Shown one piece after another: positions 3,054 to 62,412 of a stretch of DNA of 64,000 nt (position 1 is its first letter; every line of letters starts with the position of its first letter). Origin of the DNA: Thereva unica. Taxonomy: Eukaryota; Arthropoda; Insecta; Diptera; Therevidae. The stretch lies in NCBI GenBank assembly GCA_949987705.1, contig OX465281.1, positions 194,605,112 to 194,669,111 on the forward strand, given 5' to 3'. Under the pieces are notes generated by a model. The model saw nothing but the letters and a program-made list of their open reading frames with translations, searched no databases and had not been told where the DNA came from. Position numbers and translations under genes: made by a program.

Positions 3054-3570
3054 ATAGTCCAGTAAATAGGTACTTTTTCTTTGCGAAAAATACCGCATGC
3101 GATTTTTTTTACGAAATGTTTTTACATATTTTTATGAGCTTAAATTCAAAATGGCGTCATCCCCACCCTTATGCTTCACTTACAATGAAGGGAAACGCGT
3201 TTAATTCTATATCTCAGAAACTATGCGTTTTACGACAAAAATGTATATAATCTTTTTTGTAGATAAATAAGTGATTTAACTTTTTTGTTCAGAATTTTTT
3301 TTTGTAAAGTCAATATGTTCGAAGTTATAGTGCTTCAAACTTTATACATTAGAGATTATTAGATTATATACATTTTTGTCGTAAAACGCATAGTTTCTGA
3401 GATATAGAATTAAACGCGTTTCCCTTCATTGTAAGTGAAGCATAAGGGTGGGGATGACGCCATTTTGAATTTAAGCTCATAAAAATATGTAAAAACATTT
3501 CGTAAAAAAAATCGCGTGCGGTATTTTTCGCATTACGAAGGCCTTTTTTTCGACCTATTTACTGGACTAT
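3054..3570. mobile_element. Palindromic (foldback) element, 517 bp
   Basis: The left arm (3054 to about 3253) and the right arm (about 3361 to 3570) are near-perfect reverse complements of roughly 200 bases, separated by a loop of about 107 bases. The outer ends are ATAGTCCAGTAAATAGG and its complement. Both arms contain the same block with AAATGGCGTCATCCCCACCC followed by AACGCGTTT. No transposase is present. This is the structure of a non-autonomous foldback or MITE element. I could not find an unambiguous target-site duplication, so the superfamily is not assigned. The open frames inside it are a by-product of the palindrome. Confidence 0.8.
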
Positions 3571-7470: not shown

Positions 7471-7483
7471 ATTGGGGGCCTCG

Positions 7484-7690
7484 GTAGTCTACGGGTAAGG
7501 CGCCTGGCTGCTATCCCAGAGGTTCCGGGTTCGAATCCTAGCGGCGCCACGGTCCTTCGCCTTTCGCACTTTCCCACCTACATAACTTTCCTTCTTTCTT
7601 CTTCCCTCTTTACATTCCTGATTCCTCCTGTCATAGCCTTTCCTAGCCCCTCCCCGCTCCACCAAGCGCATGCCTTCGGTTAAAGATAAC
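7484..7690 (+). mobile_element. tRNA-derived SINE, 3'-truncated copy
   Basis: The segment opens with a tRNA-like head: a box-A-like stretch beginning CCTCGGTAGTCTACGGGTAA and a box B GGTTCGAATCC near 7528-7538. The body, rich in CTTTCC and CTTCTT, ends in TCCACCAAGCGCATG. It matches the SINE at 51477-51937 but diverges after about 7680, so it lacks the 3' half and poly(A). The head provides an internal RNA polymerase III promoter in this kind of element. It is not a true tRNA gene because the acceptor stem does not close. Confidence 0.75.
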
Positions 7691-43650: not shown

Positions 43651-44889
43651 TTACTACTGCATAATTTTTGAATGGAAACTGAAGTGAAGGCTTGAGCTTA
43701 ATTGATGGGTAAGGGATCGCAATCTTGTCGTAATAAATCGAGAATTTAACAGATTTTCTTACACAATCCCATTGAAAATGTGAAAACATTCATTGTCATT
43801 ACTGCTATAAAAATATTGGATTGAGTGGCTAGCGTGAAAATATGGGCGAGATACGCCTCTTATTTCTGTTAAGAAGAATTAAATTTTAACTATGATATCC
43901 CCAGCAGCGGCACCTTAATTTAGCTTTTTCCAACTCAACAACGATGTATGTACCTTTCAAAAAAAGGGGAGCCTAAATCTGTCACTACCTCCCAGTCTAT
44001 AAATTTATTTTATATCTGCTCACTTCGTCTAATAGTGACTTACCGTTTTTCCTGTCCGTTCCGAGACTTTGCTTCGGGTTTCTTAACTGATGTGTTTTTA
44101 CAGGGTATGGTAGACAGCCCAACGCCCAACATCGGATAAGATGGCCCAGCTATACCGCCGGGCACTGGGTACATCCGTCAGTCGGTTGGTTATCCAGGAG
44201 GCTCCAGCGAGGTGGTGAAGGAACGCTGTTGCCCCCCAATTTGAATTCTACCAATTCCATTTCGCAGTTATTCAGCGCTGTGCGTTCAATATGGTTTACA
44301 TTCATCTGTATTTCTTTGGACTTCTGGATTCCTGTACGCCAGCAAGCAATAGAATGCTATTAACAAAGTCCAAGTGGGACTGTAGTGCTTCTTGGTCCAG
44401 TGGGGCTTCCTACCAGTAACGTAGGGTAGTAAGGGCGGCAAAATTTCACAATAAATAATAATCATAGCTTGTAAATATTTGAACTACCTATATCATATTT
44501 TTGTCGTACATACGATTCGAACCGAATACCAGTTCCCTCATCTGTTATAGCATCTGTCTAATCTTCTGGCCATCCCAGCAGAGGTCACTAGAGTTTCTGT
44601 AACCTCTCTTACTATGATATGCGGAGGGGAGAAAAGGTGATTGGTGTACACATTTACTGCGAAGTTACATCCATTACACTACTACTATGCCTAATATTAA
44701 ATATTTGCATGTTGTCTACCTTCGAGCTAAGCTTACTGCTAGGGATTTCTAGGGATCACCTGATCAGCCGGAATTTTCAGCTAAAATCTATGTCGTTTTG
44801 TGATCCAGAGTCCTAGGGTCAGCTGCTTCAACTTGTTATAAAAACAGGTAATAATTATGCCTTAGTTCAAAGTTTATACTATTAAGTGC
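43651..44889. other. No supportable feature
   Basis: No motif or paired repeat recognised. Short open frames without family signatures. Confidence 0.45.
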
Positions 44890-45797
44890 AGCTCTAACTA
44901 TGGTTGCGCAGCTTATCTTCGAAGTACTTCTGAGACGCAGTTAGTAGCAGTACGATTTTTGTGCGCTAAAAGTCGAGTTTCACCTCTAAAAGAAGATGGA
45001 CCCACAGATGTTACGATTCCCAGATTGGAATTGACAGCAGCGCTTATTGCTGCTAGATTATGTGAGTATTTACGCAGTAAATTAAAAATGAATTTCCCTA
45101 CATATCTTTGGACGGACTCCAAAATCACCCTGTATTGGATTCGAGGTAAGGCTGAAAAGTGGAAGCAGTATGTGACTAACAGAGTTAGAGAGATTCAAAG
45201 TCTTGCAAGGATTGATCAATGGCGATACTGCCCTGGCAACGAAAACCCAGCCGACTTGATAACAAGAGGATTAACTGGTAAGCAATTAACGAAGAACACA
45301 TTGTGGCTGAACGGACCAGAGTGGCTGCAAGAGCCCTCAAATAATTGGCCTCTACAAGATTTTGAGTGCGAGAATTTGATATTGGTAAACCAAGTAGAAG
45401 CCGAACCGCAAGTTTCGGAAACTAACAATGTTATAGAATCTTTATTATCACTTGTAGATTATAGCGACTGGAAGAAACTTTTAAGAGTTACAGCATACGC
45501 TTTGCGTTTTATAGACCACATGAAAACGAGAAAGAGAAGGGAGTCGATACATCTAATGACGGAAGAATTGGAAAACGCAGAGTGCTATTGGATTAAGTAT
45601 GTTCAACGGGAGATTTATTACGAAGAATTGCAAGCTCTTTCAAGCGGCCAAAGTTTAAAAACTTCTTCTAACATTCTTACTTTGTCGCCCTATATAGACA
45701 GTGAGGGCCTATTACGAGTAGGCAGCCGACTGCGCTTTGCTTCGGAGGATATTAATATTCACAGCCCAATCATCCTTCCAAAATGTTTATTCCTAGT
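44890..45797 (+). pseudogene. BEL/Pao retrotransposon: RNase H and start of integrase
   Basis: SSNYGCAAYLRSTSETQLVA at about 44893, LCAKSRVSPLKEDGPTDVTI, PRLELTAALIAARLCEYLRS (catalytic Glu) and YLWTDSKITLYWIRG (catalytic Asp) form the Pao-type RNase H, followed by FVTNRV-like VTNRVREIQSL and RYCPGNENPADLITRG. Next is the BEL linker (WLNGPEWLQEP) and the integrase N-terminal region (LTEELENAECYWIKYVQREI-like, GLLRVGSRLRFA). It breaks off in the integrase at PIILPKCLF, where foreign BEL sequence is joined. No upstream RT is in place. Confidence 0.85.
45655..45797 (+). repeat. 143-bp exact direct repeat, copy 1 (BEL integrase)
   Basis: From TTAAAAACTTCTTCTAACAT to TTTATTCCTAGT, identical by eye to 46317-46459. 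It encodes SNILTLSPYIDSEGLLRVGS and onward. The repeat marks both breakpoints of the shuffled BEL element. Confidence 0.9.
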
Positions 45798-46316
45798 TTG
45801 TGGAATCGGAATCGTGCGCAATCCTTCGTGAATGTTTCTATGTTGATGATTTAGTGGCTAGCGTGGATGATGAAGCTGCTTGCGAAAGATTGTGTAAACA
45901 AGGAGGATGAGGTGGCGGACGATTTCACAACAAAATTTAAAGAGAAGTCCATCCATCTACGCAAAGATCGATACGAGGTTAACTTACCGTGGAGATCGTC
46001 AATTGAACGGTTTGATAACAATAGACATGGTGCACGGATGAGGCTTCAGTATTTATTACGAAAATTAAGTAAGGAACCAATAAGACTGCTCGAGTATGAC
46101 GCTGCTATGCGAGAATATATTGATACTGAAGTAGCGGAGAAAGTAGAAGAGCATACATCTTCTCAAAAGGAATATTACATGCCACACAGGCCGGTATACA
46201 GGGATGACAAAATAACTACCAAATTGAGGATTGTGTTTGACGCTTCGGCACACGAAAATGAAGCTTTATCGCTAAATGATCAACTAGAGAAAGGCTCCAA
46301 TTTGTTACCTGATTTA
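45798..46316 (+). pseudogene. BEL/Pao reverse transcriptase pieces in swapped order
   Basis: First piece (about 45809-45907): ESCAILRECFYVDDLVASVD, with the catalytic YVDD, and DEAACERLCKQ. Second piece (about 45910-46316, other frame): IHLRKDRYEVNLPWRSSIER, RLQYLLRKLSKEPIRLLEYD, SSQKEYYMPHRPVYRDD, LRIVFDASAHENEALSLNDQ and LEKGSNLLPDLL. In BEL elements the second piece lies N-terminal to YVDD. Here it follows it, so the order is reversed. About 100 residues between them are missing. Confidence 0.82.
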
Positions 46317-46459
46317 TTAAAAACTTCTTCTAACATTCTTACTTTGTCGCCCTATATAGACAGTGAGGGCCTATTACGAGTAGGCAGCCGACTGCGCTTT
46401 GCTTCGGAGGATATTAATATTCACAGCCCAATCATCCTTCCAAAATGTTTATTCCTAGT
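46317..46459 (+). repeat. 143-bp exact direct repeat, copy 2 (BEL integrase)
   Basis: Identical by eye to 45655-45797. It directly follows the RT N-terminal block and directly precedes the inverted gag-protease block, so it joins three non-collinear BEL parts. Confidence 0.9.
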
Positions 46460-46462
46460 GCT

Positions 46463-48411
46463 TCTAATCTCCAAAAATTCCTAAAATCGAAATCATTAAT
46501 AAAACTCATATGCATAATTACTGCAGACGATAAGTTAGAACTGTAGCTTTCTGCGGGGCCTTGCAGCGTCCATCCAAACTCCGTATTAATAGCGGTCAAA
46601 TTTTCCGATATGCGCTTAATTTCACCCGTTGCGAACTTCCAATATTGATCTGCTCCAATCAGGATACTAATTCCCTGCTCCAAGTGCGAGTTTTGCACTC
46701 GAAAGTCGGCCAAAGTTAATTCACTCAGGTTACTATTTTGAAGGTTAGGAACAGCTAAGACATCAATGCAGATTTCTGGCACAACAACAGCTTCCAACGA
46801 CAGAACTTTGTCACTAAATTGCCCTTTCAAAAATATTCGCACTCTTTCATATTTCTTCATTGGAGGCTTGCTATTTTTACCAAATGGAATAACACTCATT
46901 CGTTGAAAACCTACTACAGGTAATTTCAATGCTCTCGCGATATTTTCACGCATAAAAGATAATTGGCTTCCACCATCTAATATTAAACGCACAAACAACT
47001 CTGAATGCAATTTGGTTGCTGATGCGTACACACAGGCCGTTTGTAAGTAAACCTTCATTTGCCGCGGCTCGAAATTTGCCGCATACAAGTTCAAAGCCGA
47101 CGGCTGTTGTTTGTTTACTTTAGTTTCGACAGAAAATCCTGATTTTTTGAATGTTGGATCACACATAGAGGTCAGGTGTCTTCCTTTACAATTTTTGCAC
47201 TTCAGGTTAATTTTACAGAATTTTGTAAGATGTCCTCGTCTAGCACAGCGAAAACACCTTCCTTCTTTCAGCAACATTTGTTTTCTTTCGCCAATAGAAG
47301 CAGCAGCATCACAACCATCTGTAGGATGACAGGAGGATTTACAAAAAAAGCACGGCTCTTTGACAGCGGTTGTAAACAAATTAGCTGCTGTGCTAAATGA
47401 CTTTGAATGTGAACTTCCCGTCTGCCCCCTTATCTCGACCGATCTTTCCAAGGAACTTACTTCTTTTTTCAGAAATTTTAGAAGAGCTTTTGTTTGCTTG
47501 TCTCCTTCAAATTCTATAGAGCTTGCAGAATCGTTCAAGGTTACTTCGGGTTCATCTTCACCGGCTTCCAGTTGCTTCAGATCGCTAGAATAATATCGGT
47601 GGAATTCGACTCGAAGGTCATTTGGGAGACATCGTAGAAGAATAGTTTTGAGCATGATGTAGTAATGACTGGACGGAATGCCTAACGCTGTAAGCGAACG
47701 TGTGCCAGCCATCACGGAGTTGTAGAGGTCTCGTAAGCCCTTCGCGTCGTTTTTTGATATTACTGGTTTCAGGGACATCAATTGTTGCATGGTTCCATCG
47801 ATGATTTTATCCCGATCACCGTACTCTTCTGCCAACAATGCTATTGCACTTTCATAGCAACCTTGTGTTGGTGTGAATCCTGCTACTACATTTGCAGCTT
47901 TTCCTGTTAATACCGACAAAAGATAATTGAATTTGTCTACGGTGCTCAGCGTGGTATTATCATGAACTGCCGCCTTAAATTGCTCCCAAAAAGGTAGCCA
48001 GTCTCTAAGGTCACCTGAAAATTTTCGCAATTGTAATTTTGGTAGCTTTATGACATTCTGTTTTTCTGCATGTGGTGCTGCTGCCTGTTCTACAGGCTCT
48101 TGCAAGCGAGTAACTTTAGATAACCGGACTTTCAGACGCGCCATTGCATTAACGGCGTTATCCTCATACTCTGTTATTTTTTCAAATTCAGACCTGGCTT
48201 CTTCGGGCTTCATTAGGACTTTCATCTCTTCATTTGCCCGTCTTAAATTTTCTTGTGCCAGCTTCAACCGTTCCATGTAGGATGTTAATTCTTCCTCAAT
48301 GCTGTCGAGCTCATCCTTATTTTTATCCGGCTTCGATTCGTCGGACTGCAAATATTCATTTATTGCTTTCACCAAACGCGTAACTTGTCCACGATATGCC
48401 GCACGCTCCAT
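46463..48411 (-). CDS. BEL/Pao gag-protease, open frame, inverted relative to the pol pieces
   Basis: About 650 codons without a stop from MERAAYRGQVTRLVKAINEY (48411). Residues 1-110 are a coiled-coil-like gag N-terminus (LDSIEEELTSYMERLKLAQE). The DUF1759-type gag core follows: LPKLQLRKFSGDLRDWLPFW, FNYLLSVLTGKAANVVAGF, LKTILLRCLPNDLRVEF. Zinc knuckles are CFFCKSSCHPTDGC, CFRCARRGHLTKFC and CKNCKGRHLTSMC. The aspartic protease active site is VRLILDGGSQLSFMRENIAR (DGGS), then LIGADQYWKFATG. The frame runs off the element after FNDFDF-like NDFDFRNFWRLEAL into the 143-bp repeat, ending at 46432. Start is supported by the PBS and LTR just upstream. Confidence 0.88.
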
Positions 48412-48505
48412 GATAAAATATCAGTCCTTTTGTTTTTAATTCGGTTTAATTTTTTTTTTTTTTTAAATTATGCGTTTTCGTTTCCTTCGTTCCACGGTTT
48501 AGTCG

Positions 48506-48945: not shown

Positions 48946-49313
48946 GGTGCACCCCTCGAAATCACTCACTACACTCGAAAAAAGGGACAACACTACTCAT
49001 TGAGGTGAAGTCCTATCCTTTTTGTCTTACTTAGCATTCGTACGGCAATTAAATCTGACTTGCAATGCCTACCGACAGAGCTCGTCTGTGGCCAGAATCT
49101 GAGTTTGCCCCATTCAATTTCCATCCCGTTGGCTAAAAACCCAATCGAGCACCCAAAATTTCCCATTCGCCTTCGCTCGACAACCCAGTCAGATTTTTAT
49201 GTGCCCTGACTCTTGGTGGGCCCCGACTATGTTTTCGTGCGCAACGACCGGGTATGAAACCTGTTTGATCCCCCGTCTTTATGTTTGATCCCCCGTCTTT
49301 AGGACCGTACAAG

Positions 49314-51078
49314 CACAGAGTACTTAATATACAGAGGGAACAACGAAGAACAAAATGTGTTATCAAATTATTTTGAAGTAAAGCTTTTGGCAAGCTTTTG
49401 TGAGAGACAATATCAAATTTGAAGAGATAAAATTCTGTCCAATTTAACTTTTTCTCACGACTTCGTTGGCGCAGCAACAAGCGCCGGGCAGAGGGTCTTA
49501 CCTTACACACATACATATAAATAATGTGCCAGCATATTATTATGGAGAAAGTTGATAGGAGCATTCCGGTGCGGTAAGGGGAATTCGAAAGGGGGGAGGG
49601 TTTTTCTAGTCCCAAACATCTGCTATGAGTGTTTTTTTTTTTTTCATTTATGCACGTACGAAGAAAAAAACAAGTTTTCTGCCCATGAACAAAATTAAAT
49701 TTTGGTGGATAGCATAAGAAATCTACCTTTCTGGTTTAACCAAGGAATATTCTCGGGGATATTGGCTTTTTATTGTTATTATTGTAAAATGTGAGAGTAC
49801 TTAGTTTGTTTTATTTATAACTGATAAAGAAGAATTGTTGTGGGCATCTTTGTTATGATGTACGACAGGCTATGCAATGTAAATTTCACCTGGTGTGGTT
49901 TTTTAGGGGGGTTAAAAGGGATAAAATTTAGTTTTTCATGATTAGCTCGAAAACTATTGATTTTTGAGATATATAATTTTTATAAAAATTAAACTTCATT
50001 AAATGTTCACAAGAAATGGAAGGAAACTATTGTAGCATACATTTTTAACCGTCAAAGACCTACAATTATATGGTGCGGATTTTTAAAACCAGGGCTAAAG
50101 ATGACTAACTAACTTACTATCAAACCTAATTGCAAAAATTGCGATACCAGTTTTATTATTTGATGAATACCATCAGCTGACCAACCAGCAACGATGATTC
50201 ATACAAAGTAAGTTGTTTTCTTGTTTGGAGACAGCGCTCGCCATCCCGGCACTGAAGTGGTCGTTAGGTCAGGTTAAAATGGCTGCCCACTTAAGCCCGA
50301 CATTGGGCACATTGTGATGCCATCCTATGTAGTGTTGGAACAAAGTTCAGGCCATTTTAAGCCATTTTGAGCTTTTGATAAAGCGACAGAGATTAGGAGC
50401 ACCATTATTTTGCAGCTCGCTTAATCCATTAAGGAAGGGTGAGCCAAGGAAGGTCCTCTTTTTCTTCCGAGGGCGGGACATGTACAGAGAATATGGGAGA
50501 CAGTTTCTTCTTCTTATTCATTACCACAACTTCTTCATAAGTCGTTGTGGGGAAGTTCTAATCTTTCGGCGTGCGGGGCAAAGGTACAGTCACCGGTCAG
50601 CACCTTTACTATATGGCTTACCTCATTTTTGGTTCAACTGAACAAGAGATGTTGAACGCTTTGCGTCCAAAGTTGGCCACATTGCATGAAGAGTGCGGCA
50701 CACCGTTGCTGTGATCCAACTCAACCCAGCTCGAGCCAAGCTGATTTTCCTCACAGCTTGTTTGTAGGAGGCAAGGGCATTCCCATCCGGGTTAAGTGGG
50801 GTGTGCTTTCCACTTCGTTTCCCTGTCTGCAAGCTCATCAGCAGCAGGTCGTTACCAAAACATTTTTGATTTGATATGGTCCTGTAAATTGAATTGGTTG
50901 AAGCTTATGACTTTCTCTGGTAGATGGTCGTTCATATATGGTTAATACGAGGTCGTTAAGTGAATACGGTTTATGCGATGTATGCATCCATCCATTAATG
51001 ACTTCTTCTTATTTAACGGCTCTACAATCGCTTTACCGTCCCGCCCTCTCGTAACTATTCTCGCCACCAATCCCGATT
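49314..51078. other. E1 left part, non-coding
   Basis: Shared with 57577-59328 at very high identity. Only short open frames occur; they are present in both copies because of the duplication, not because of evident selection. No motif recognised. Confidence 0.5.
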
Positions 51079-52640
51079 CTATCCAGCCATCCTTCCAGCG
51101 AACGTTGGGTTTCCCTCGCTATCGCCCTCATAGATGTTACCGTAGAGAACTTTCCGATCCTGTCCATCTTCACTCATAAGAGCTAGATACCCTGTCCACC
51201 GGGACCTACCGCGCTTTGATTTCTCCACAACATCTATGTCGCTATAACGCTCGTAGATCTCGTCGTTGTAAAATTTTCGGAATTGTCCTTTATCTCCATC
51301 ATCATTGGCACTACAGCCGTCTGTGAGCCTAGGCCTCCTCAAGAACTTTCGTTCAATGATCTTGGTCCTGTATCTCTGTGTTCTGGTTGGTAACCCAATT
51401 GTAAGTTCATTTTTTTGTCACCTTTATATCTCTTCCTAGGTCTTGTAACCCTAATCGCTCTGGCCTTTGGAGGAACCTCGGTAGTCTAGAGGTAAGGCGC
51501 CTGACTGCTATCCCCAGAGGTCCCGGGTTCGAATCCCGGCGGTGCCACGGTCCTTCGCCTTTCCCACCTAACTTTCCTTCTTTCTTCTTCCCTCTTTACA
51601 TTCCTGATCCCCCTGTCATAGCCTTCCCTAGTCCTTCCCCGCTCCACCAAGCGCATGTCGTCGTTGGTTGATGAGATTCAACTCGTTTCAGGAGGCATAA
51701 CACTCCAGCGAGTTGTTCTCGACGCCCCGATGTCAGAGTCGCGAAATGGTTGTGAGTAGGTGGAATAAAAATATCGCGGCTAGGTTGTGACAGTTACTTC
51801 CTTCTCTTCTCTCTATCTTCCGGCTAGAGCTGCTGTTCGACATTCACTCTATACGAAAAAATAGATTGTCGACAGTACAAAGGGACTTTCCCCTAAGCCT
51901 CTAGTCTGTCACATAAAAAAAAAAAAAAAAAAAAAAACAGGAAGTTTGGGGCACTTCTGCAGGCATTCCCATTACATGACCTATCTAATGTAGGCGTGAC
52001 ATATCTATGGTTGTGGCAGGTTCTTTATATATTTAGTACAATTTGGGGTTGTATCTTCTTCACAACAATTTTCCGAAGGAAGTGACTGTCGAACAAGGTT
52101 AAGAGGTTAGAGTGCTTGGATTTGAAGTGTCTTGACACACTGCAGTAGGTTTTGTTGGCTTTTAGAAGCCGTGCGCGTATTTCTAGTACCATGCTATAGT
52201 GGGCTGCTACTATTGACTCAAGGTAGGTAAATACTTTTACCACTTCAAAATCGTATTCCTCTACCTTGATTGTGGGACCAATGTTAGGTGTTCTTGCAGA
52301 CGAGGCCACCATATATGTACTTTGATTTCGTGCCGCCGGTTCAATCTGGGTGAAAGCTACTTGTACTGTTCTTGATGGTCTTCCGATGATGTCAGTGTCA
52401 TAAGCCATCAGTATTTGTGGAGGATTCTGCCCTTTAATGTCACCCCTGGATTATTTTCTCCAACACTAAGTTGAAAAGGACAAGCCGGTCGGAGTCCATT
52501 ATAGACCAGACCTATAGGGACAGTGGTCCGGACGTTTAAATCCTTATCGCAGATAATATCATTTAAAATTTTCCAGCCGAATGACATGCAATGAAGATGA
52601 AGATTTTACTTTGTTAGATGCTGTGAATTATAATCAATGT
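51079..52640 (-). pseudogene. RTE-type LINE relic inside E1, split by the SINE
   Basis: Minus strand, reading from 52600: NGLRPACPFQLSVGENNPGV then KGRILHKY, followed by MAYDTDIIGRPSRTVQVAFT (a decayed A-Y-A-D-D-type catalytic box: AYDTD), STYMVASSARTPNIGPTIKV, FEVVKVFTYLESIVAAHYSM, YCSVSRHFKSKHSNLLTLFD (to about 52025). After a gap that includes the SINE come RKFYNDEIYERYSDIDVVEK, SRWTGYLALMSEDGQ down to 51079. The second catalytic Asp is replaced and stops are present, so it is long dead. The same relic in E2 lies at 59329-60420, which shows that it predates the E1/E2 duplication. Confidence 0.75.
51477..51937 (+). mobile_element. tRNA-derived SINE, full length, with empty site in E2
   Basis: Head: CCTCGGTAGTCTAGAGGTAA (box A) and GGGTTCGAATCC (box B at about 51525). 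Body: about 310 bp. Tail: (A)23 at 51915-51937. E2 reads TTTGGAAGAACAGGAAGTTT across the site (about 59717-59736), so this copy entered E1 after the two copies separated. The target duplication is at most AAC and is masked by the poly(A). Three copies (7484, 42843, 51477) define the family. Confidence 0.9.
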
Positions 52641-54501
52641 TAAACAAACGTAGGGGGTGTTCTTGTCAAGGACTTACTTTCTTTGTAAGTCGATAATGAA
52701 AATTTTAATGAAAGTACTGGTATTTAGAAAAGGCACTTGATACCGTTGTTTAAGCACTATTTCTACCAAGAGGTGTCGAAAAACACTTTTCAAAGTATGC
52801 GTGTGGATAATGCTTAGTAGAGAAACCATTGATTTGTAAAAACTGTGATATTAAATAAGGAAAAAGTTTCATTACAGTGCTGTTTTTATGATTACTGTTT
52901 TTTCTTGTTACAAAGATTGAAAAGACACCGTTTGGTCAAAATAGGTACACACAAAATCGTGGTAGAAATAGTGTTAAAAAACAATTTCTCAGATGAGGCT
53001 TCTATAAACTAATATATATTCAAAACAAAGGTTGAACATTGTAATAATTGCAAGAATATTTATTAAAACAAGGAGAATGGCTTGGACTTAAAAATGAGTC
53101 CCTTTTAAATAGTAAAAATTACATAAACAGTACTAATCCGGGGTCTTACATTCGCCTTGACAACTTCTTTTTGATTTGGGTAAAGCTCATATCAAAATTT
53201 TTGGGAAGGGGTTTAGTGAACGGTCGCAAGAAATTCCATTAAATCAAAACCTATGCAAAAGTGCTATACCAGAAAAGACAGAAACATTGCTAATAACGAT
53301 TAATAAATAGCTTGGTGTACTGTATGCCCTCCATATTTCCCTCTTATCCTCTTTGTTCTTGCCGTATATGCAAATATAGTTGCGCTTGTTTGATCACAAC
53401 AAATCGTGGGTTGTGCCTACGTTTTAAAATGCGCCTACGGTGGTGTTATATACTATGCAAAATATAAACTCGCAAAATACAAATTCGAAGGAGTATATAC
53501 TATCGTTTGTGAAAAAATTGCATGATCTACAGTTGTTATTGTAATTATTTTTGCGATAAAACCTACCATTTAAGAGATATTTGTTTTTGAATGTTGGATC
53601 TTGGAAAATTTTGTAAAGTAAGTTCGATAGATTGGACTAGATGTATTTTTGTTCCAGTAAGCACTTTGGGAACGAGTCCCCCAAATTTTGACAGCAAGTG
53701 GTGTCACGGCTCCCAAGTTGTGTTCAAAACATCAGGCCAGTTCAAAGAAAAGTGTGTTTAAAATACATGAATACGATGCAACTAACAAAAATGTCAAATA
53801 TTCCAAGTAACTCCCAAAAAAAATGAAAAATTAGCAGTTTCAAACAAAGTGGAAACATACATATTTGTTTTTGATATAACGTGTAAATTTAATAAATAAA
53901 CCACCTGGTTCCACTATTAGAGCAGGCAGCAAAGGAACTTTCGACCGCGTCATCGCGTCACAGGATAAATTTTCTATATATTAGGATAGAATTTTTATAA
54001 TTGTGTTAGGAAACGTTGAGTTGCCAAGGTATATCGGAGACGGATTTAGAACTAGAAATGTAATATAACTTTTTTTCGTAAAGTTAATAATTTAAATACA
54101 CATTAATCTTTAAAAATTAAAAATTTTCCAATCATTTTACAATTCTTAATTTTTTATATCATCTAAACTCCCAAAAAATCTTATTAGCAATTTTAATATT
54201 TTAATTTTTTTTTATATTTTTAGTGCGCCAGCCTAATCGTTCGTTTACGAAAAAAAGTTAGTTAAAAACAATAAAGACCCATTTCATTTTATTATCACAA
54301 TCGCAGGTAGAAAAATATTCTTTTCCTTTCCAAAGATTCTATTTCAGTTCATTACTATACAACCACACCAAAAAGTTATTGCGCACACACATCCTGCTTA
54401 GCAGTGAAAAACTTGAAGAGAGAGTCATGATGAGTTTCGCTCTCAAAGAAAACAAAAAGCTCGGATGGGTTACGACTTGTGACCCATTTTGGACGTCGTA
54501 A
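52641..54501. other. E1 right-centre part, non-coding
   Basis: Shared with E2 60421-62362 apart from a small block present only in E2 near 61818-61905. No motif. A hairpin-forming GGTTACGAC...GTCGTAACC pair at about 54470-54503 marks the insertion site of the inner element. Confidence 0.5.
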
Positions 54502-54937
54502 CCAAAGCCTTCTACATTTACAAGCCATGCACAACAAAATTTCACACTCACATTCAAAGGTGCATGGGACTTCAATTTTGCTGTCAGACTTCGAAGTGGC
54601 AAGTGCGGTTATGTTTATTTTATTGTGCGGTTCGGGTGGTTTTTTATTATGCATATTTTATGTGTAAATAAATCTAAGGCCGGGTAATTATATTATTTAT
54701 TTTAAACCGAAGATAATGTATAAAGTGTTTTAATTTTTAGGAGTATTCCTTTTTAACTGCAAACGGCACTGCAGAAGCTCCAGCAACACCGGAAGCCGGG
54801 ACTAAAAAACAGAAGTCAAAAAAGACTCCTCAACCATCTTTTTCTGTTCAAGAAGCCCCGGAATTCAATGAAGAAAAATTCAACGAGGTCATCCACACAG
54901 GAAAATGCTGAGACAGTAATCACGGCTCTCAAGAAGC

Positions 54938-55180
54938 AAGTTTCTAAACAAATTACTAACATGAAGAATCAAGTGTTTTCTGTGGTTTTCTGACTACAAG
55001 TATCTTATAAATGTCATCTTCCTCAGTTTCTAAACTAATTACTAACATGAAGAATCAAGTGTTTTCTGACTACAAGTATCTTATAAATGTCATCTTCTTC
55101 AGTTTCTAAACAAATTACTAACATGAAGAATCCAGTGTTTTCTGACAAAAATATCTTATAAATGTCGCCTGCTTCAAGAT
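54938..55180 (+). repeat. Three-fold tandem duplication within captured exon
   Basis: Units of about 75-86 bp beginning GTTTCTAAACAAATTACTAA and ending TTATAAATGTC, at about 54939, 55026 and 55105. The first has an extra TGGTTTTCTG; the third has small changes. This expansion lies in the middle of the L1-domain exon and breaks its frame. Confidence 0.8.
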
Positions 55181-55210
55181 CCCCAATTGCCCCAAAAGGA
55201 TCGTCAGACT

Positions 55211-55267
55211 GTAAGTGTAAATCTTGATATATTATCTTACTTTCATAAAACAAATTATTTCTTCTAG
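55211..55267 (+). other. Retained intron 1 of the captured L1-domain gene
   Basis: 57 bp, from GTAAGT to TTCTTCTAG. Removing it keeps the L1-domain frame (..KRIVRL / TLKNPLVAADG..). Its presence shows capture from genomic DNA and not from mRNA. Confidence 0.7.
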
Positions 55268-55542
55268 GACCTTAAAAAATCCATTGGTTGCCGCCGACGG
55301 AAAAGTTTGTCGAATTGTAAAAGATTTGCAGAAAGGCTTAAAGGTAGACTATGAGCCTACAATCCAGCACTACGAGGATCTCTTAAAGAAGAAGGGCGTG
55401 AAGGGTATAAAGACAATTATTCCGTTCAATCAGATAAAAACCGAGTACAGAAGCTATGAAATGAAGGATAAACTCAAATTTATACGACTGTTACCTTGTC
55501 GACGGTGCAATATCGAAACATGTTGGCGCCTTTTTGGGAAGG

Positions 55543-55605
55543 GTAAGAAAATATTATAAAATGTTAAGATAATAAACTTACAAAATAAAATTTTAACCCC
55601 TTTAG
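55543..55605 (+). other. Retained intron 2 of the captured L1-domain gene
   Basis: 63 bp, from GTAAGA to ACCCCTTTAG. Splicing joins GAFLG(K/R) to KFQRTKCTLYPVRMEEE, in the order expected of the L1 fold (G..(H)F..+RK.P...). Confidence 0.7.
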
Positions 55606-56014
55606 AAATTCCAACGGACAAAGTGTACTCTTTATCCCGTTCGCATGGAGGAGGAGAATCTTGCTCAAGAAATTAAAAAGGCGTCGACAGAGATCAGTTT
55701 CAGACAGCTGGAGAAGGGACCTATGATCTCAATTCCGGTAGGAATTGACAAGCACACTCCTAAACAAGTGGCGGAAAATATTTTAGAAGTTGTTAAGCAA
55801 CTAAAGAAGGTCTATCCTGGTGGTCTGGCAAACATAAGAAACATCTACGCCAGGACAAACTTAAAAGGCACATCTTCCTTCCCTCTATACGTAAACATGG
55901 GTAGCCCACCAGCGGTTACGCCATATGTTTGGTGCAAAGCCTAAACCGAAGATAATGTATAAAGTGTATTCATCTCTTTTAATTTTTAGGAGTACGTTAT
56001 GATATATGTATATA

Positions 56015-56625
56015 TACTTTCAAATCCGGAATTTTAGCTGAAGGATCTGCCATTGAAGACTTATTGAATGCCGATCGGGTTTTGATTGACGGGGAAGAAA
56101 CTACAGAACGGAATATAGCTGTTGACTCTTTCTTGGATTTATCAACATTGGATTCCAAAACTATATATTAAAAACTAATATTTGGAGCTCGGAGCTTGCG
56201 AAACTAGTAGATTAGAGTATGCGACGCAACTGGGGCTGATGTATATGAAGTAGCTAGAGCAGTAGGTCTTGACTCGCGAATTGGATCCAAATTTTTGCAA
56301 GCCTGTAGGATTTGGTGGCAGTTGCATCCAAAAAGACATCTTGAATTTGGTTTATATTTGTGAAGGTTGGAACTTACCAGAAGTAGCTGCATATTGGCAA
56401 CAAGTAATTAATATGAATATCAGAAAAATCGTTTTTATCTAAAGGTATTATTTTATACGTTAAAAAAATTATCAATCCATAATGTATTTTAATATTTAAC
56501 AAAATACAGATTATTGAAAGTCTATTTAACACGGTATCAGACAAAAGAATCTCAATATTTAATTTTGCATTTAAAAAGAATACCGGCGATACCAGAGAAA
56601 CGCCAACCATAACCGGAAATGTATA
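56015..56625 (+). pseudogene. Captured UDP-glucose 6-dehydrogenase gene fragment
   Basis: SNPEFLAEGSAIEDLLNADR and VLIDGEETTERNIAVDS, then (frame changes) LKTNIWSSELAKLV, a deletion, [20 protein letters not shown] and IGSKFLQA, the active-site-type block [36 protein letters not shown], a 65-bp intron (56445-56509), then [20 protein letters not shown] and [15 protein letters not shown]. These are unmistakable UGDH blocks (sugarless in flies). The catalytic Cys of GGSC is kept. The enzyme oxidises UDP-glucose to UDP-glucuronate for glycosaminoglycans. Only the middle part is present, with stops and a deletion, so it is a dead fragment. Confidence 0.85.
56445..56509 (+). other. Retained intron of the captured UGDH fragment
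   Basis: 65 bp from GTATTATTTT to AAAATACAG, placed between the NRF...K and IIESLFN blocks, which adjoin in UGDH. Conventional splice borders are intact. Confidence 0.7.
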
Positions 56626-57491
56626 AATATAACATCAACTCTGAAAATAGAAAAAGCGACTTTCCACACCACCTCTAGAGGTATCGCAGTAGGGCGCGTT
56701 AACCAATTATTTTTAATGACTGGTTTCCCCAATAGGCCTATTACCATTTTTTCCCGGGGGACATGAAATTAAAAAAAATACACAGTGTAGAATTATGTAA
56801 TAAAAATATAAATATAAAAAATAAATTCTATCTAATATATATTGCAATGTTTTTTTATTATGCATATTTGTTTATTATAATTCCCCAGGTAATCCGGGCA
56901 GGTGAAAATCGAAACACCCGGGTATTGTAATTTTCCATTAATCAAACGGGCTCAAGAAAAAAATGCACAATTACTCTTTAAATGTTGCAACCGCCACAAA
57001 ATATGTTGATATTACCAATTAAAACAATAAAAGAAATGTTTATACTTTTTCGTAAACACTCCAATAAGAAAAAGAATAAATTTCTTTTATTGCAACTAGG
57101 TAAATTTAAGGGCGATTGCAACTAATACAAAATTACTTACAGGTACGATGCGATAATTCTTTCTATTTCCTATCCTGTAGCTCACTCACTTTATATTATT
57201 TTAAAACGTTTTTTAAACTTATTTTTGAAACATAACCACAATAACTTGAAATCATAACCACAATAACTTTTTAACTTTATGTTATATTTCACGAAAATGA
57301 ACTTATACTGGCATATTTCCAACTTTTTTATATTTTTTTATGCCACAAATTATTATTTTTTATATTTTATTTATGCCACAAATCACCTAAATCGTTTTTA
57401 ATCGCGCACTTTTAACTTTCTTGCTGCTTCCATTTTAAAATCACTTTGACATTTCGTTGGGACTTCATACAACGACATACACACACCTGCA
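56626..57491. other. Inner element right part, AT-rich, no gene
   Basis: AT-rich, with duplicated short blocks (ATTTTTTATGCCACAAATTA at about 57334 and 57360). No motif. This sequence is unique to E1 within the window. Confidence 0.5.
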
Positions 57492-57576
57492 GCATGGCTT
57501 GTAAATGTAGAAGGCTTTGGTCGTAACCCATTGTTCCTGTTGTTCCCTCTGTATGTTAAGTACTCTGTGGTACAAG

Positions 57577-60500
57577 CACAGAGTACTTAATATACAGAGG
57601 GAACAACGAAGAACAAAATGTGTTATCAAATTATTTTGAAGTAAAGCTTTTGGCAAGCTTTTGTGAGAGACAATATCAAATTTGAAGAGATAAAATTCTG
57701 TCCAATTTAACTTTTTCTCACGACTTCGTTGGCGCAGCAACAAGCGCCGGGCAGAGGGTCTTACCTTACACACATACATATAAATAATGTGCCAGCATAT
57801 TATTATGGAGAAAGTTGATAGGAGCATTCCGGTGCGGTAAGGGGAATTCGAAAGGGGGGGAGGTTTTTTCTAGTCCCAAACATCTGCTATGAGTGTTTTT
57901 TTTTTCATTTATGCACGTACGAAGAAAAAAACAAAGTTTTCTGCCCAAAATTTTGGTGGATAGCATAAGAAATCTACCTTTCTGGTTTAACCAAGGAATA
58001 TTCTCGGGGATATTGGCTTTTTATTGTTATTATTGTAAAATGTGAGAGTACTTAGTTTGTTTTATTTATAACTGATAAAGAAGAATTGTTGTGGGCATCT
58101 TTGTTATGATGTACGACAGGCTATGTAATGTAAATTTCACCTGGTGTGGTTTTTTAGGGGGGTTAAAAGGGATAAAATTTAGTTTTTCATGATTAGCTCG
58201 AAAACTATTGATTTTTGAGATATATAATTTTTATAAAAATTAAACTTCATTAAATGTTCACAAGAAATGGAAGGAAACTATTGTAGCATACATTTTTAAC
58301 CGACAAAGACCTACAATTATATGGTGCGGATTTTTAAAACCAGGGCTAAAGATGACTAACTAACTTACTATCAAACCTAATTGCAAAAATTGCGATACCA
58401 GTTTTATTATTTGATGAATCCCATCAGCTGACCAACCAGCAACGATGATCATACAAAGTAAGTTGTCTTCTTGTTTGGAGACAGCGCTCGCCATCCCGGC
58501 ACTGAAGTGCTCGTTAGGTCAGGTTAAAATGGCTGCCCACTTAAGCCCGACATTGGGCACATTGTGATGCCATCCTATGTAGTGTTGGAACAAAGTTCAG
58601 GCCATTTTAAGCCATTTTGAGCTTTTGATAAAGCGACAGAGGTTAGGAGCACCAATATTTTGCAGCTCGCTTAATCCATCAAGGAAGGGTGAGCCAAGGA
58701 AGGTCCTCTTTTTCTTCCGAGGGCGGGACATGTACAGAGAATATGGGAGACCGTTTCTTCTTCTTATTCATTACCACAACTTCTTCATAAGTCGTTGTGG
58801 GGAAGTTCTAATCTTTCGGCGTGCGGGGCAAAGGTACAGTTACCGGTTAGCACCTTTACTATATGGCTTACCTCCTTTTTGGTTCAACTGAACAAGAGAT
58901 GTTGAACGCTTTGCGTCCAAAGTTGGCCACATTGCATGAAGAGTGCGGCACACCGTTGCTGTGATCCAACTCAACCCAGCTCGAGCCAAGCTGATTTTCC
59001 TCACAGCTTGTTTGTAGGAGGCAAGGGCATTCCCATCCGTGTTAAGTGAGGTGTGCTTTCCACTTCGTTTCCCTGTCTGCAAGCTCATCAGCAGCAGGTC
59101 GTTACCAAAACATTTTTGATTTGATATGGTCCTGTAAATTGAATTGGTTGAAGCATATGACTTTCTCTGGTAGATGGTCGTTCATATGTGGTTAATACGA
59201 GGTCGTTAAGTGAATACGGTTTATGCGATGTATGCATCCATCCATTAATGACTTCTTCTTATTTAACGGCTCTACAATCGCTTTACCGTCCCGCCCTCTC
59301 GCAACTATTCTCGCCACCAATCCCGATTCTATTCAGCCATCCTTCCAGCGAACGTTGGGTTCCGCTCGCTATCGCCCTCATAGATGTTACCGTAGAGAAC
59401 TTTCCGATCCTGTCCATCTTCACTCATAAGAGCTAGATACCCTGGCCACCGGGACCTACCGCGCTTTGATTTCTCCACAACATCTATGTCGCTATAACGC
59501 TCGTAGATCTCGTCGTTGTAAAATTTTCGGAATTGTCTTTTATCTCCATCATCATTGGCACTACAGCCGTCTGTGAGCGTAGGCCTCCTCAAGAACTTTC
59601 GTTCAATGATCTTGGTCCTGTATCTCTGTGTTGTGGTTGGTAACCCAATTGTAAGTTCATTTTTATGTCACCTTTATATCTCTTCCTAGGTCTTGTAACC
59701 CTAATCGCTCTGGCCTTTGGAAGAACAGGAAGTTTGGGGCACTTCTGCAGGCATTCCCATTACATGTCCTATCTAATGTAGGCAAGATATATCTATTTAG
59801 TACAATTTGGGGTTGTATCTTCTTCACAACAATTTTCCGAAGGAAGTTACTGTCGAACAAGGTTAAGAGGTTAGAGTGCTTGGATTTGAAGTGTCTTGAC
59901 ACACTGCAGTAGGTTTTGTTGGCTTTTAGAAGGCGTGCGCGTATTTCTAGTACCATGCTATAGTGGGCTGCTACTATTGACTCAAGGTAGGTAAATACTT
60001 TTACCACTTCAAAATCGTATTCCTCTACCTTGATTGTGGGACCAATGTTAGGTGTTCTTGCAGACGAGGCCACCATATATGTACTTTGTTTAGCTTTCGT
60101 TGATTTGCAGTCCCAGCTTTCGTGCCGCCGGTTCAATCTGGGTGAAAGCTACTTGTACTGTTCTTGATGGTCTTCCGATGATGTCAGTGTCATAAGCCAT
60201 CAGTATTTGTGGAGGATTCTGCCCTTTAATGTCACCCCTGGATTATTTTCTCCAACACTAAGTTGAAAAGGACAAGCCGGTCGGAGTCCATTATAGACCA
60301 GACCTATAAGGACAGTGGTCCGGACGTTTAAATCCTTATCGCAGATAATGTCATTTAAAATTTTCCAGCCGAATGACAGCAATGAAGATGAAGATTTTAC
60401 TTTGTTAGATGCTGTGAATTATAATCAATGTTAAACAAACGTAGGGGGTGTTCTTGTCAAGGACTTACTTTCTTTGTAAGTCGATAATGAAAATTTTAAT

Positions 60501-62405
60501 GAAAGTACTGGTATTTAGAAGAGGCACTTGATACCGTTGTTTAAGCACTATTTCTACCAAGAGGTGTCGAAAGACACTTTTCAAAGTATGCGTGTGGAAA
60601 ATGCTTAGTAGAGAAACCATTGATTTGTAAAAACTGTGATATTAAATAAGGAAAAAGTTTCATTACAGTGCTGTTTTTATGATTACTGTTTTTTCTTGTT
60701 ACAAAGATTGAAAAGACACCGTTTGGTCAAAATAGGTACACACAAAATCGTGGTAGAAATAGTGTTAAAAAATAATTTCTCAGATGAGGCTTCTATAAAC
60801 TAATATACATATATTCAAAACAAAGGTTGAACATTGTAATAATTGCAAGAATATTTATTAAAACAAGGAGAATGGCTTGGACTTAAAAATGAGTCCCTTT
60901 TAAATAGTAAAAATTACATAAACAGTACTAATCCGGGGTCTTACATTCGCCTTGACAACTTCTTTTTGATTTGGGTAAAGCTCATATCAAAATTTTTGGG
61001 AAGGGGTTTAGTGAACGGTCGCAAGAAATTCCATTAAATCAAAACCTATGCAAAAGTGCTAGAAAAGACAGAAACATTGCTAATAACGATTAATAAATAG
61101 CTTGGTGTACTGTATGCCCTCCATATTTCCCTCTTATCCTCTTTGTTCTTCCCGTATATGCAAATATAGTTGTGCTTGTTTGATCACAACAAATCGAGGG
61201 TTGCGCCTACGTTTTAAAATGCGCATACGGTGGTGTTATATATTATGCAAAATATAAACTCGCAAAATATAAATTCGAAGGAGTATATACTATCGTTTGT
61301 GAAAAAATTGCATGATCTACAGTTGTTATTGTAATTATTTTTGCGATAAAACCTACCATTTAAGAGATATTTGTTTTTGAATGTTGGATCTTGGAAAATT
61401 TTGTAAAGTAAGTTCGATAGATTGGACTAGATGTATTTTTGTTCCAGTAAGCACTTTGGGAACGAGTCCCCCAAATTTTGACAGCAAGTGGTGTCACGGC
61501 TCCCAAGTTGTGTTCAAAACATCAGGCCAGTTCAAAGAAAAATTAGTTTAAAATGCATGAATACGATGCAACTAACAAAAATGTCAAATATTCCAAGTAA
61601 CTCCCAAAAAAAATGAAAAATTAGGAGTTTCAAACAAAGTGGAAACATATTTTTTTTTTTGATATAACGTGTAAATTTAATAAATAAACCACCTGGTTCC
61701 ACTATTAGAGCAGGCAGCAAAGGAACTTTCGACCGAGTCATCGCGTCACAGGATACATTTTCTATATTAGGATAGTATTTTTATAATTGTGTTAGGAAAC
61801 GTTGAGTTGCCAAGGTATCTCCCGGTACCATAAGGGATATATTATTATAAACAGTTATTTTATAACAAAACGAAAATTAAAATTGTAACAATTTTGTAAT
61901 ATTTTTGGACGGATTTAGAACTAGAAATGTAATATAACTTTTTTTCGTAAAGTTGATAATTTAAATACACATTAATCTTTAAAAATTAAAAATTTTCCAA
62001 TCATTTTACAATTCTTAATTTTTTATATCATCTAAACTCCCAAAAAATCTTATTAGCAATTTTAATATTTTACTTGTTTTTTATATTTTTAGTGCGCCAG
62101 CCTAATCGTTCGTTTACGAAAAAAAGTTAGTTAAAAACAATATAAGACCCATTTCATTTTATTATCACAATCGCAGGTAGAAAAATATTCTTTTCCTTTC
62201 CAAAGATTCTATTTCAGTTACTACCACACCAAAAAGTTATTGCGCACACACATCCTGCTTAGCAGTGAAAAACTTGAAGAGAGAGTCATGATGAGTTTCG
62301 CTCTCAAAGAAAACAAAAAGCTCGGATGGGTTACGACTTGTGACCCATTTTGGACGTCGTAACCCATTGTTCCTGTTGTTCCCTCTGTATGTTAAGTACT
62401 CTGTG
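57577..62405. mobile_element. Large TIR element E2 (4,829 bp), tandem with E1
   Basis: Same TIRs as E1 (CACAGAGTACTTAATATACA ... inverse ending CTCTGTG at 62405). GTACAAG at 57570-57576 and 62406-62412. Very similar to E1 along its whole length by eye, with scattered substitutions and small indels. Lacks the SINE and the inner Pack-type element, so it preserves both empty sites. It contains an ~85-bp block at about 61818-61905 not in E1. Confidence 0.85.
59329..60420 (-). pseudogene. RTE-type LINE relic inside E2
   Basis: Same relic as 51079-52640 without the SINE: RKFYNDEIYERYSDIDVVEK at 59400-59520, FEVVKVFTYLESIVAAHYSM at about 59990 and NGLRPACPFQLSVGENNPG at about 60240. An extra ~27-bp stretch near 60090-60120 separates the catalytic-box region from STYMVASSART compared with E1. 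Dead. Confidence 0.75.
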
Positions 62406-62412
62406 GTACAAG

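Follow-up and report, generated by a model that had tools for sequence, protein, structure and literature searches.

A terminal-inverted-repeat element of the fly Thereva unica carries a fragment of an RSL1D1-like gene nested within a fragment of UGDH

How do pieces of two unrelated genes come to lie between the ends of one small transposon-like unit, and have they travelled with it? The question is raised by a 3,019-bp unit (positions 54502-57520) in a 64,000-nucleotide stretch of the genome of Thereva unica (Diptera, Therevidae; contig OX465281.1, positions 194,605,112 to 194,669,111 of the forward strand). This whole stretch is referred to as the window, and all coordinates are those of the window. 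Where a feature has an orientation, it is the forward one unless stated otherwise. The unit is inserted in a larger repeat element, E1, and contains a fragment of an RSL1D1-like gene and a fragment of UGDH, the gene of UDP-glucose 6-dehydrogenase. An earlier note, made from the sequence, had interpreted it as a Pack-type transposon in which captured fragments of the two genes had been fused.

The unit is delimited by 29-bp terminal inverted repeats (TIRs), the left one (54502-54530) beginning with CCAAAGCC, the right one (57492-57520) lying on the reverse strand. As inverted copies the two are identical at 29 of 29 positions, and they enclose an interior of 2,961 nucleotides. When up to three mismatches were allowed, the end sequence was found at these two places in the window and nowhere else, and none of 100 shuffled sequences produced a match. 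The termini are CC..GG. On both sides the unit is flanked by the hexanucleotide TCGTAA (54496-54501 and 57521-57526), the presumed target-site duplication. Because this sequence starts with T and ends with A, it can be parsed equally well as 30-bp ends starting with A plus a 4-bp duplication, CGTA (54497-54500 on the left). When the flanks of the insertion were joined over one copy of TCGTAA, the resulting 104 nucleotides were found as an exact copy, starting at 62302, in a sister element of E1 designated E2. E2 therefore carries the empty site (62357-62362). The perfect ends, the 6-bp direct repeats and the empty site described in the earlier note were all borne out, the repeats with the shorter parse as an equal option. 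No further sequence of the unit was detected in the window by blastn at an E-value of 0.01 with the low-complexity filter on, and similarity between the left and right subterminal flanks was at the level of chance (51 of 200 shuffles were as good). Exact matches to the ends were absent from viral contigs (29 nucleotides) and prokaryotic contigs (26 nucleotides), a result that has little weight for an insect element.

Between E1 (49314-57569), which has 31-bp inverted ends, and E2 (57577-62405) there are 66 differences over 4,711 aligned positions. The two are arranged head to tail (49307-62412), with the 7-mer GTACAAG before E1, between the two elements and after E2, and form a tandem pair with a single target duplication in common; at the junction their 31-bp inverted ends are 97% complementary. 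Ends and duplications of these lengths (31 and 7 bp) are also those of P-like elements (1360/ProtoP), to which the pair may be related. E1 contains a 462-bp insertion (approximately 51471-51932) without counterpart in E2, which has a tRNA-like start, GGTTCGAATCCCGG, and a poly-A end. Its appearance on visual inspection is that of a tRNA-derived short interspersed element; ARAGORN made no call there. Conversely, an 83-bp stretch of E2 (approximately 61822-61904) has no counterpart in E1.

The UGDH part of the cargo consists of a decayed exon fragment (55990-56444), a 65-bp GT..AG intron (56445-56509) and a second exon fragment (56510-56614). The read-through of these pieces matched PDB chains of UDP-glucose 6-dehydrogenase at 9.5e-69, covering residues 162-222 and 236-351 of chain 5w4x, which we take to be the human enzyme; a single frame by itself reached 1.7e-4. 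In a tblastn search of the raw element with the UGDH protein P0013, both exon pieces were recovered in single frames (6.5e-24 and 4.1e-16), the first with stops along the match path. The translated piece is identical at 155 of 180 residues to each of the three closest among six UGDH proteins compared, which share 89-95% among themselves. Over the 180 aligned codons there are seven frameshifts, and a gap of about 15 codons. Among the best 120 of 7,999 scored relatives the top identities were 74-77%, flies being among them (Condylostylus, Ceratitis, Rhagoletis, Eupeodes, Scaptodrosophila and Drosophila guanche), and two records labelled cotton and dragonfly had higher scores at identities of just 60 and 68%.

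The second gene is represented by a fragment at 54746-55945, whose last bases overlap a direct repeat described below. It resembles the L1-domain gene RSL1D1/CG13096 and comprises three exon pieces separated by two GT..AG introns of 57 bp (55211-55267) and 63 bp (55543-55605). A 76-bp sequence is tandemly repeated 2.4 times within the first exon piece (54985-55166). The exon piece 55606-55941 matched Ribosomal_L1 (PF00687) at 1.2e-11, over the cut-off, and the preceding piece gave a weak match to the same domain (0.034, under the cut-off). The spliced read-through had eight homologues, the sole named one being a CG13096-like L1-domain protein of Rhagoletis pomonella. Alignment of the conserved part to the homologue P0001 revealed two frameshifts and no stops over 191 codons, and alignment to P0007, in which the first exon and the tandem array are included, five frameshifts and one stop over 221 codons. 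The domain match and the homologues on one side, and the match to the dehydrogenase chains on the other, confirmed both gene assignments of the earlier note. Both gene copies are broken, and the cargo is not predicted to make protein.

All three introns (57, 63 and 65 bp) split stretches that are contiguous in the homologous proteins. Because GT..AG introns were kept at such positions, the cargo must have been copied from genomic DNA, and an mRNA origin is ruled out by their presence in both cargo genes. In this respect the earlier note was right, both in describing pieces of unrelated genes in one orientation with short canonical introns and in its conclusion that these exclude an mRNA route.

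The relative arrangement of the two fragments was revealed by a direct repeat, TAAACC...TTTTTAGGAGTA, whose copies (54703-54745 and 55942-55994) both have the sequence TAAACCGAAGATAATGTATAAAGTG..TTTTAATTTTTAGGAGTA. All 43 aligned bases are identical, the second copy containing 10 extra bases that appear as a 10-bp gap, and the alignment score of 75.5 compares with a best score of 26.5 among 200 shuffles. In the second copy AG/GA GTA CGT TAT GAT ATA (the slash marks the intron/exon border) encodes GVRYDI, with GAGTA continuing in phase into UGDH, so this copy is the tail of a UGDH intron followed by the start of the exon. The first copy, the same intron tail plus AG/GAGTA, directly abuts RSL1D1 sequence. 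Since the RSL1D1 fragment has this UGDH intron/exon border, as a direct repeat, both to its left and to its right, it is nested within the UGDH fragment, and a serial fusion of two genes, which would not place that border at both ends, was rejected. Of the fusion proposed in the earlier note, the presence of two genes in one 3-kb unit stands, and their side-by-side arrangement does not.

The sequence to the left of the first copy (54637-54683) is likely the end of the upstream UGDH exon. The part at 54646-54683 encodes IMHIL..N..PG and terminates in a phase-1 donor (G/GTAATT), as the preceding UGDH exon should, and it would be followed by a likely UGDH intron of 57 bp (54684-54740) whose donor depends on this weak exon. 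The match is suggestive and modest: one of 60 shuffles was as good, and its score of 25 was matched by 4 of 1,200 GGT sites sampled from 1,368 (best score 31), a sample that may include the site itself. The same region takes part in a second, diverged direct repeat (54637-54688 and 56848-56893), which brackets the UGDH stretch. Its copies are identical at 39 of 45 positions, with eight gap columns, and its score of 39.5 was reached by none of 200 shuffles, the best of which came close (37.5).

We favour the interpretation, at a probability of roughly 0.55, that the unit is a non-autonomous fly DNA transposon of the Pack-TIR type, which took up first UGDH and then RSL1D1 by break repair and subsequently transposed into E1 with its cargo. 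In the first step, a break inside a TIR transposon would have been filled by copying genomic UGDH DNA together with its introns. In the second step, to which the 43/53-bp inner repeat points, the UGDH piece would have suffered a staggered break whose ends were filled in and joined to either side of a genomic copy of RSL1D1. In mouse embryonic stem cells, tandem duplications are reported to arise from paired-nick breaks that have 43-bp overhangs (PMC8355091), and because the filling-in of such overhangs has this outcome, a flanking repeat of 43-53 bp is plausible as a repair scar. The same paper cites work in rice on patch-mediated break repair. The third step is directly visible, the unit being found in E1 between duplicated target sequences and missing from E2.

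The same geometry, with the left UGDH part ending at GAGTA and the right part resuming upstream with the intron tail, is also predicted if the whole cargo was acquired in a single repair excursion, in which the polymerase copied UGDH, switched to RSL1D1 and re-entered UGDH at a point some 50 bp upstream of its exit, by template switching resembling fork stalling and template switching (FoSTeS). Template switching during break repair is the mechanism to which Tan et al. 2021 ascribe and by preference attribute gene capture in animals (PMC8277862), and decay does not clearly separate the ages of the UGDH and RSL1D1 pieces. The lower frameshift density in conserved RSL1D1 (2 in 191 codons versus 7 in 180 for UGDH) points in the opposite direction, but the difference was not significant (Fisher P = 0.096). 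Because of this result, and because the first RSL1D1 exon is also frameshifted (the five frameshifts and one stop against P0007), ordering of the captures by decay was dropped, and the order UGDH before RSL1D1 is read from the nesting. We regard a single excursion as possible, if rather unlikely.

Neither the nesting nor the decay of UGDH needs a transposon to have been present. RSL1D1 could thus have been inserted in a chromosomal copy of UGDH, with the transposon later capturing the finished composite. This scheme requires an independent insertion and a capture at one and the same locus, and appears improbable to us.

The target duplication and the empty site alone cannot exclude that a cargo-less transposon inserted in E1 and was filled in place by gap repair, so that the cargo never moved; they are compatible with either course, and single-copy cases independent of transposition are described as dominating in animals (PMC8277862). 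To serve as a clock, frame-breaking insertions and deletions (indels) in the UGDH piece were compared with the indels that distinguish E1 from E2. Over their 4,711 aligned positions, and with both lineages summed, the two elements differ by 17 indels. Of these, 13 break the frame, including one that arises from the point at which E1 was cut and so makes the test conservative. The seven frameshifts of the UGDH piece are about nine times the 0.77 expected in one lineage since the E1/E2 split (P = 1.7e-5). Under the full two-lineage divergence the excess had a P value of 0.001. Because the insertion is younger than the E1/E2 split, this excess suggests that the UGDH cargo likely had decayed before the element landed in E1, and that the element likely moved together with its cargo. 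In the fourth step of the favoured scheme, the element with the decayed UGDH would accordingly have been mobilized as a whole by a transposase supplied from elsewhere in the genome, and the clock lends support to the mobile unit postulated by the earlier note. Filling in place would be at odds with the indel excess unless the template was a pseudogene or E1 and E2 had been homogenized, and we consider it quite improbable.

Of 15 proteins scanned, eight are encoded inside the unit, three straddle its ends and four lie outside. Among those inside or straddling, just the L1 domain reached the Pfam cut-off, and no transposase was found in the reading frames scanned; these were a selection of all frames, and a transposase in decay could escape such a scan. 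The idea that there is no transposon, merely genomic DNA flanked by chance short repeats or an assembly artefact, draws on this result and on the single known copy, and is made extremely improbable by the perfect 29-bp ends, the 6-bp duplication and the exact 104-nucleotide empty site in E2.

Several points weigh against two successive captures followed by transposition. The unit is known here from one copy, in a 64-kb window. Since E1 and E2 are in tandem, gene conversion between them could make the insertion look too young, and the UGDH template could already have been a pseudogene. Frameshift counts vary with the penalties of the aligner, and decay, as judged from these alignments, is not informative about the order of the two captures. 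Support for the upstream UGDH exon is weak. Finally, a simple two-step story leaves unexplained why the sequence of this exon recurs at 56848-56893; this outer repeat may be a scar like the inner one, left by an earlier event, or a re-copied bit of UGDH.

The earlier note had been unable to name the superfamily of the unit, and the same holds after comparison with the candidates. The unit shares its CC..GG termini with piggyBac, whose target duplication is the 4-bp TTAA; the duplication found here is TCGTAA, or CGTA in the 4-bp parse, under which the termini become AC..GT. For hAT and P elements a target duplication of about 8 bp is expected, compared with 6 (or 4) bp in the unit. Kinship with the ends of E1 and E2 was rejected, the match being limited to seven columns (ATTTACA/ATATACA). 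The length of the duplication, 6 bp unless the 4-bp parse applies, is that of IS3EU/GingerRoot, which are defined by a 6-bp target duplication and TA..TA termini, in GingerRoot occasionally TG..CA (PMC10045372, PMC3706591); the CC..GG termini of the unit do not conform. A 6-bp duplication is also common to the unit and to Dada, for which duplications of 6-7 bp and small RNA genes as targets are reported, Dada-U6 and Dada-U1 having no terminal inverted repeats (PMC10045372, PMC3706591). The unit has 29-bp inverted ends and sits in another transposon, E1, and the window contained no Rfam match at the gathering score. Complete Mutator-like elements (MULEs) of Diptera are described as having terminal inverted repeats of 72-431 bp, a range that excludes ends of 29 bp (PMC13359780). 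Since a tested feature speaks against each of IS3EU, Dada, piggyBac, hAT/P and fly MULEs, the superfamily cannot be named. It is a doubtful but conceivable extension that the unit represents an undescribed insect superfamily (CC..GG termini, 6-bp duplication) in which gene fragments become stacked within each other as staggered breaks are filled time after time. Each filling would leave a direct repeat of about 50 bp, and these repeats, the inner one fresh and the outer one diverged, would record the order of capture.

Some other features of the window were recorded. An inverted repeat with 172-nucleotide arms (3082-3253 and 3361-3532), 99% complementary and 107 nucleotides apart, forms a large hairpin that is perhaps a foldback element. 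A tRNA-like match with a four-base anticodon (7477-7550) is perhaps part of a repeat. An identical 143-nucleotide direct repeat (45655-45797 and 46317-46459) lies between two facing coding stretches, 44866-45831 on the forward and 46432-48420 on the reverse strand. The latter contains DUF1759 (3.5e-32), which we take as pointing to Pao/BEL retrotransposons; of the 14 relatives of its Pao-like open reading frame (46432-48408) ten are from flies (Eupeodes 5, Hermetia 4, Rhagoletis 1), one is from a beetle and two are from corals. Taken with the UGDH relatives, these matches make a brachyceran fly the likely host.

For plants, there is ample documentation of gene capture by DNA transposons, and some Pack-MULE/Pack-TYPE elements there carry pieces of several genes; for animals the record is thin. 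Like these plant elements, which are non-autonomous DNA transposons carrying host coding DNA (PMC8903248), the unit carries host coding DNA, and it differs from them by its fly host and its 29-bp ends. Tan et al. 2021 (PMC8277862) reported 370 animal Pack-TIRs in 100 genomes, of which 323 were hAT or Tc/mariner elements; by that account none was a Pack-MULE and none came from insect reference genomes or birds, and one family, Ssk-FB4, was present in populations of D. melanogaster. As in animal Pack-TIRs, the unit holds intron-keeping genomic gene pieces between TIR ends with a target duplication. Of the features by which Pack-TIRs are recognized, it has the ends of one TIR element at both flanks (29/29 identical), an interior between 100 and 5000 bp (2,961 nucleotides) and the introns of multi-exon parents (57, 63 and 65 bp). 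It differs from the surveyed Pack-TIRs in drawing on two parental genes, with the piece of one enclosed in that of the other, and in its fly host. The survey retained captures whose length was 80-120% of the parental copy (PMC8277862), a filter that favours one source and that likely misses two-source cargo. Terms for nested or multi-source cargo do not occur in the main text of that study, and among the matches listed for the literature since 2021 the term Pack-TIR occurs only in Tan et al.

The Pack-type reading of the earlier note is supported by the inverted ends, the target duplication, the empty site and the two intron-bearing gene fragments in an animal host. The unit likely behaves as a Pack-TIR, and what is new would be its two-source, nested cargo and its occurrence in a dipteran. 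If this is true, a fly unit that holds two nested gene pieces and moved after it had been filled would mean that exon shuffling by TIR transposons operates also in insects, that cargo can accumulate stepwise, and that the bracketing direct repeats allow the order of events to be read.

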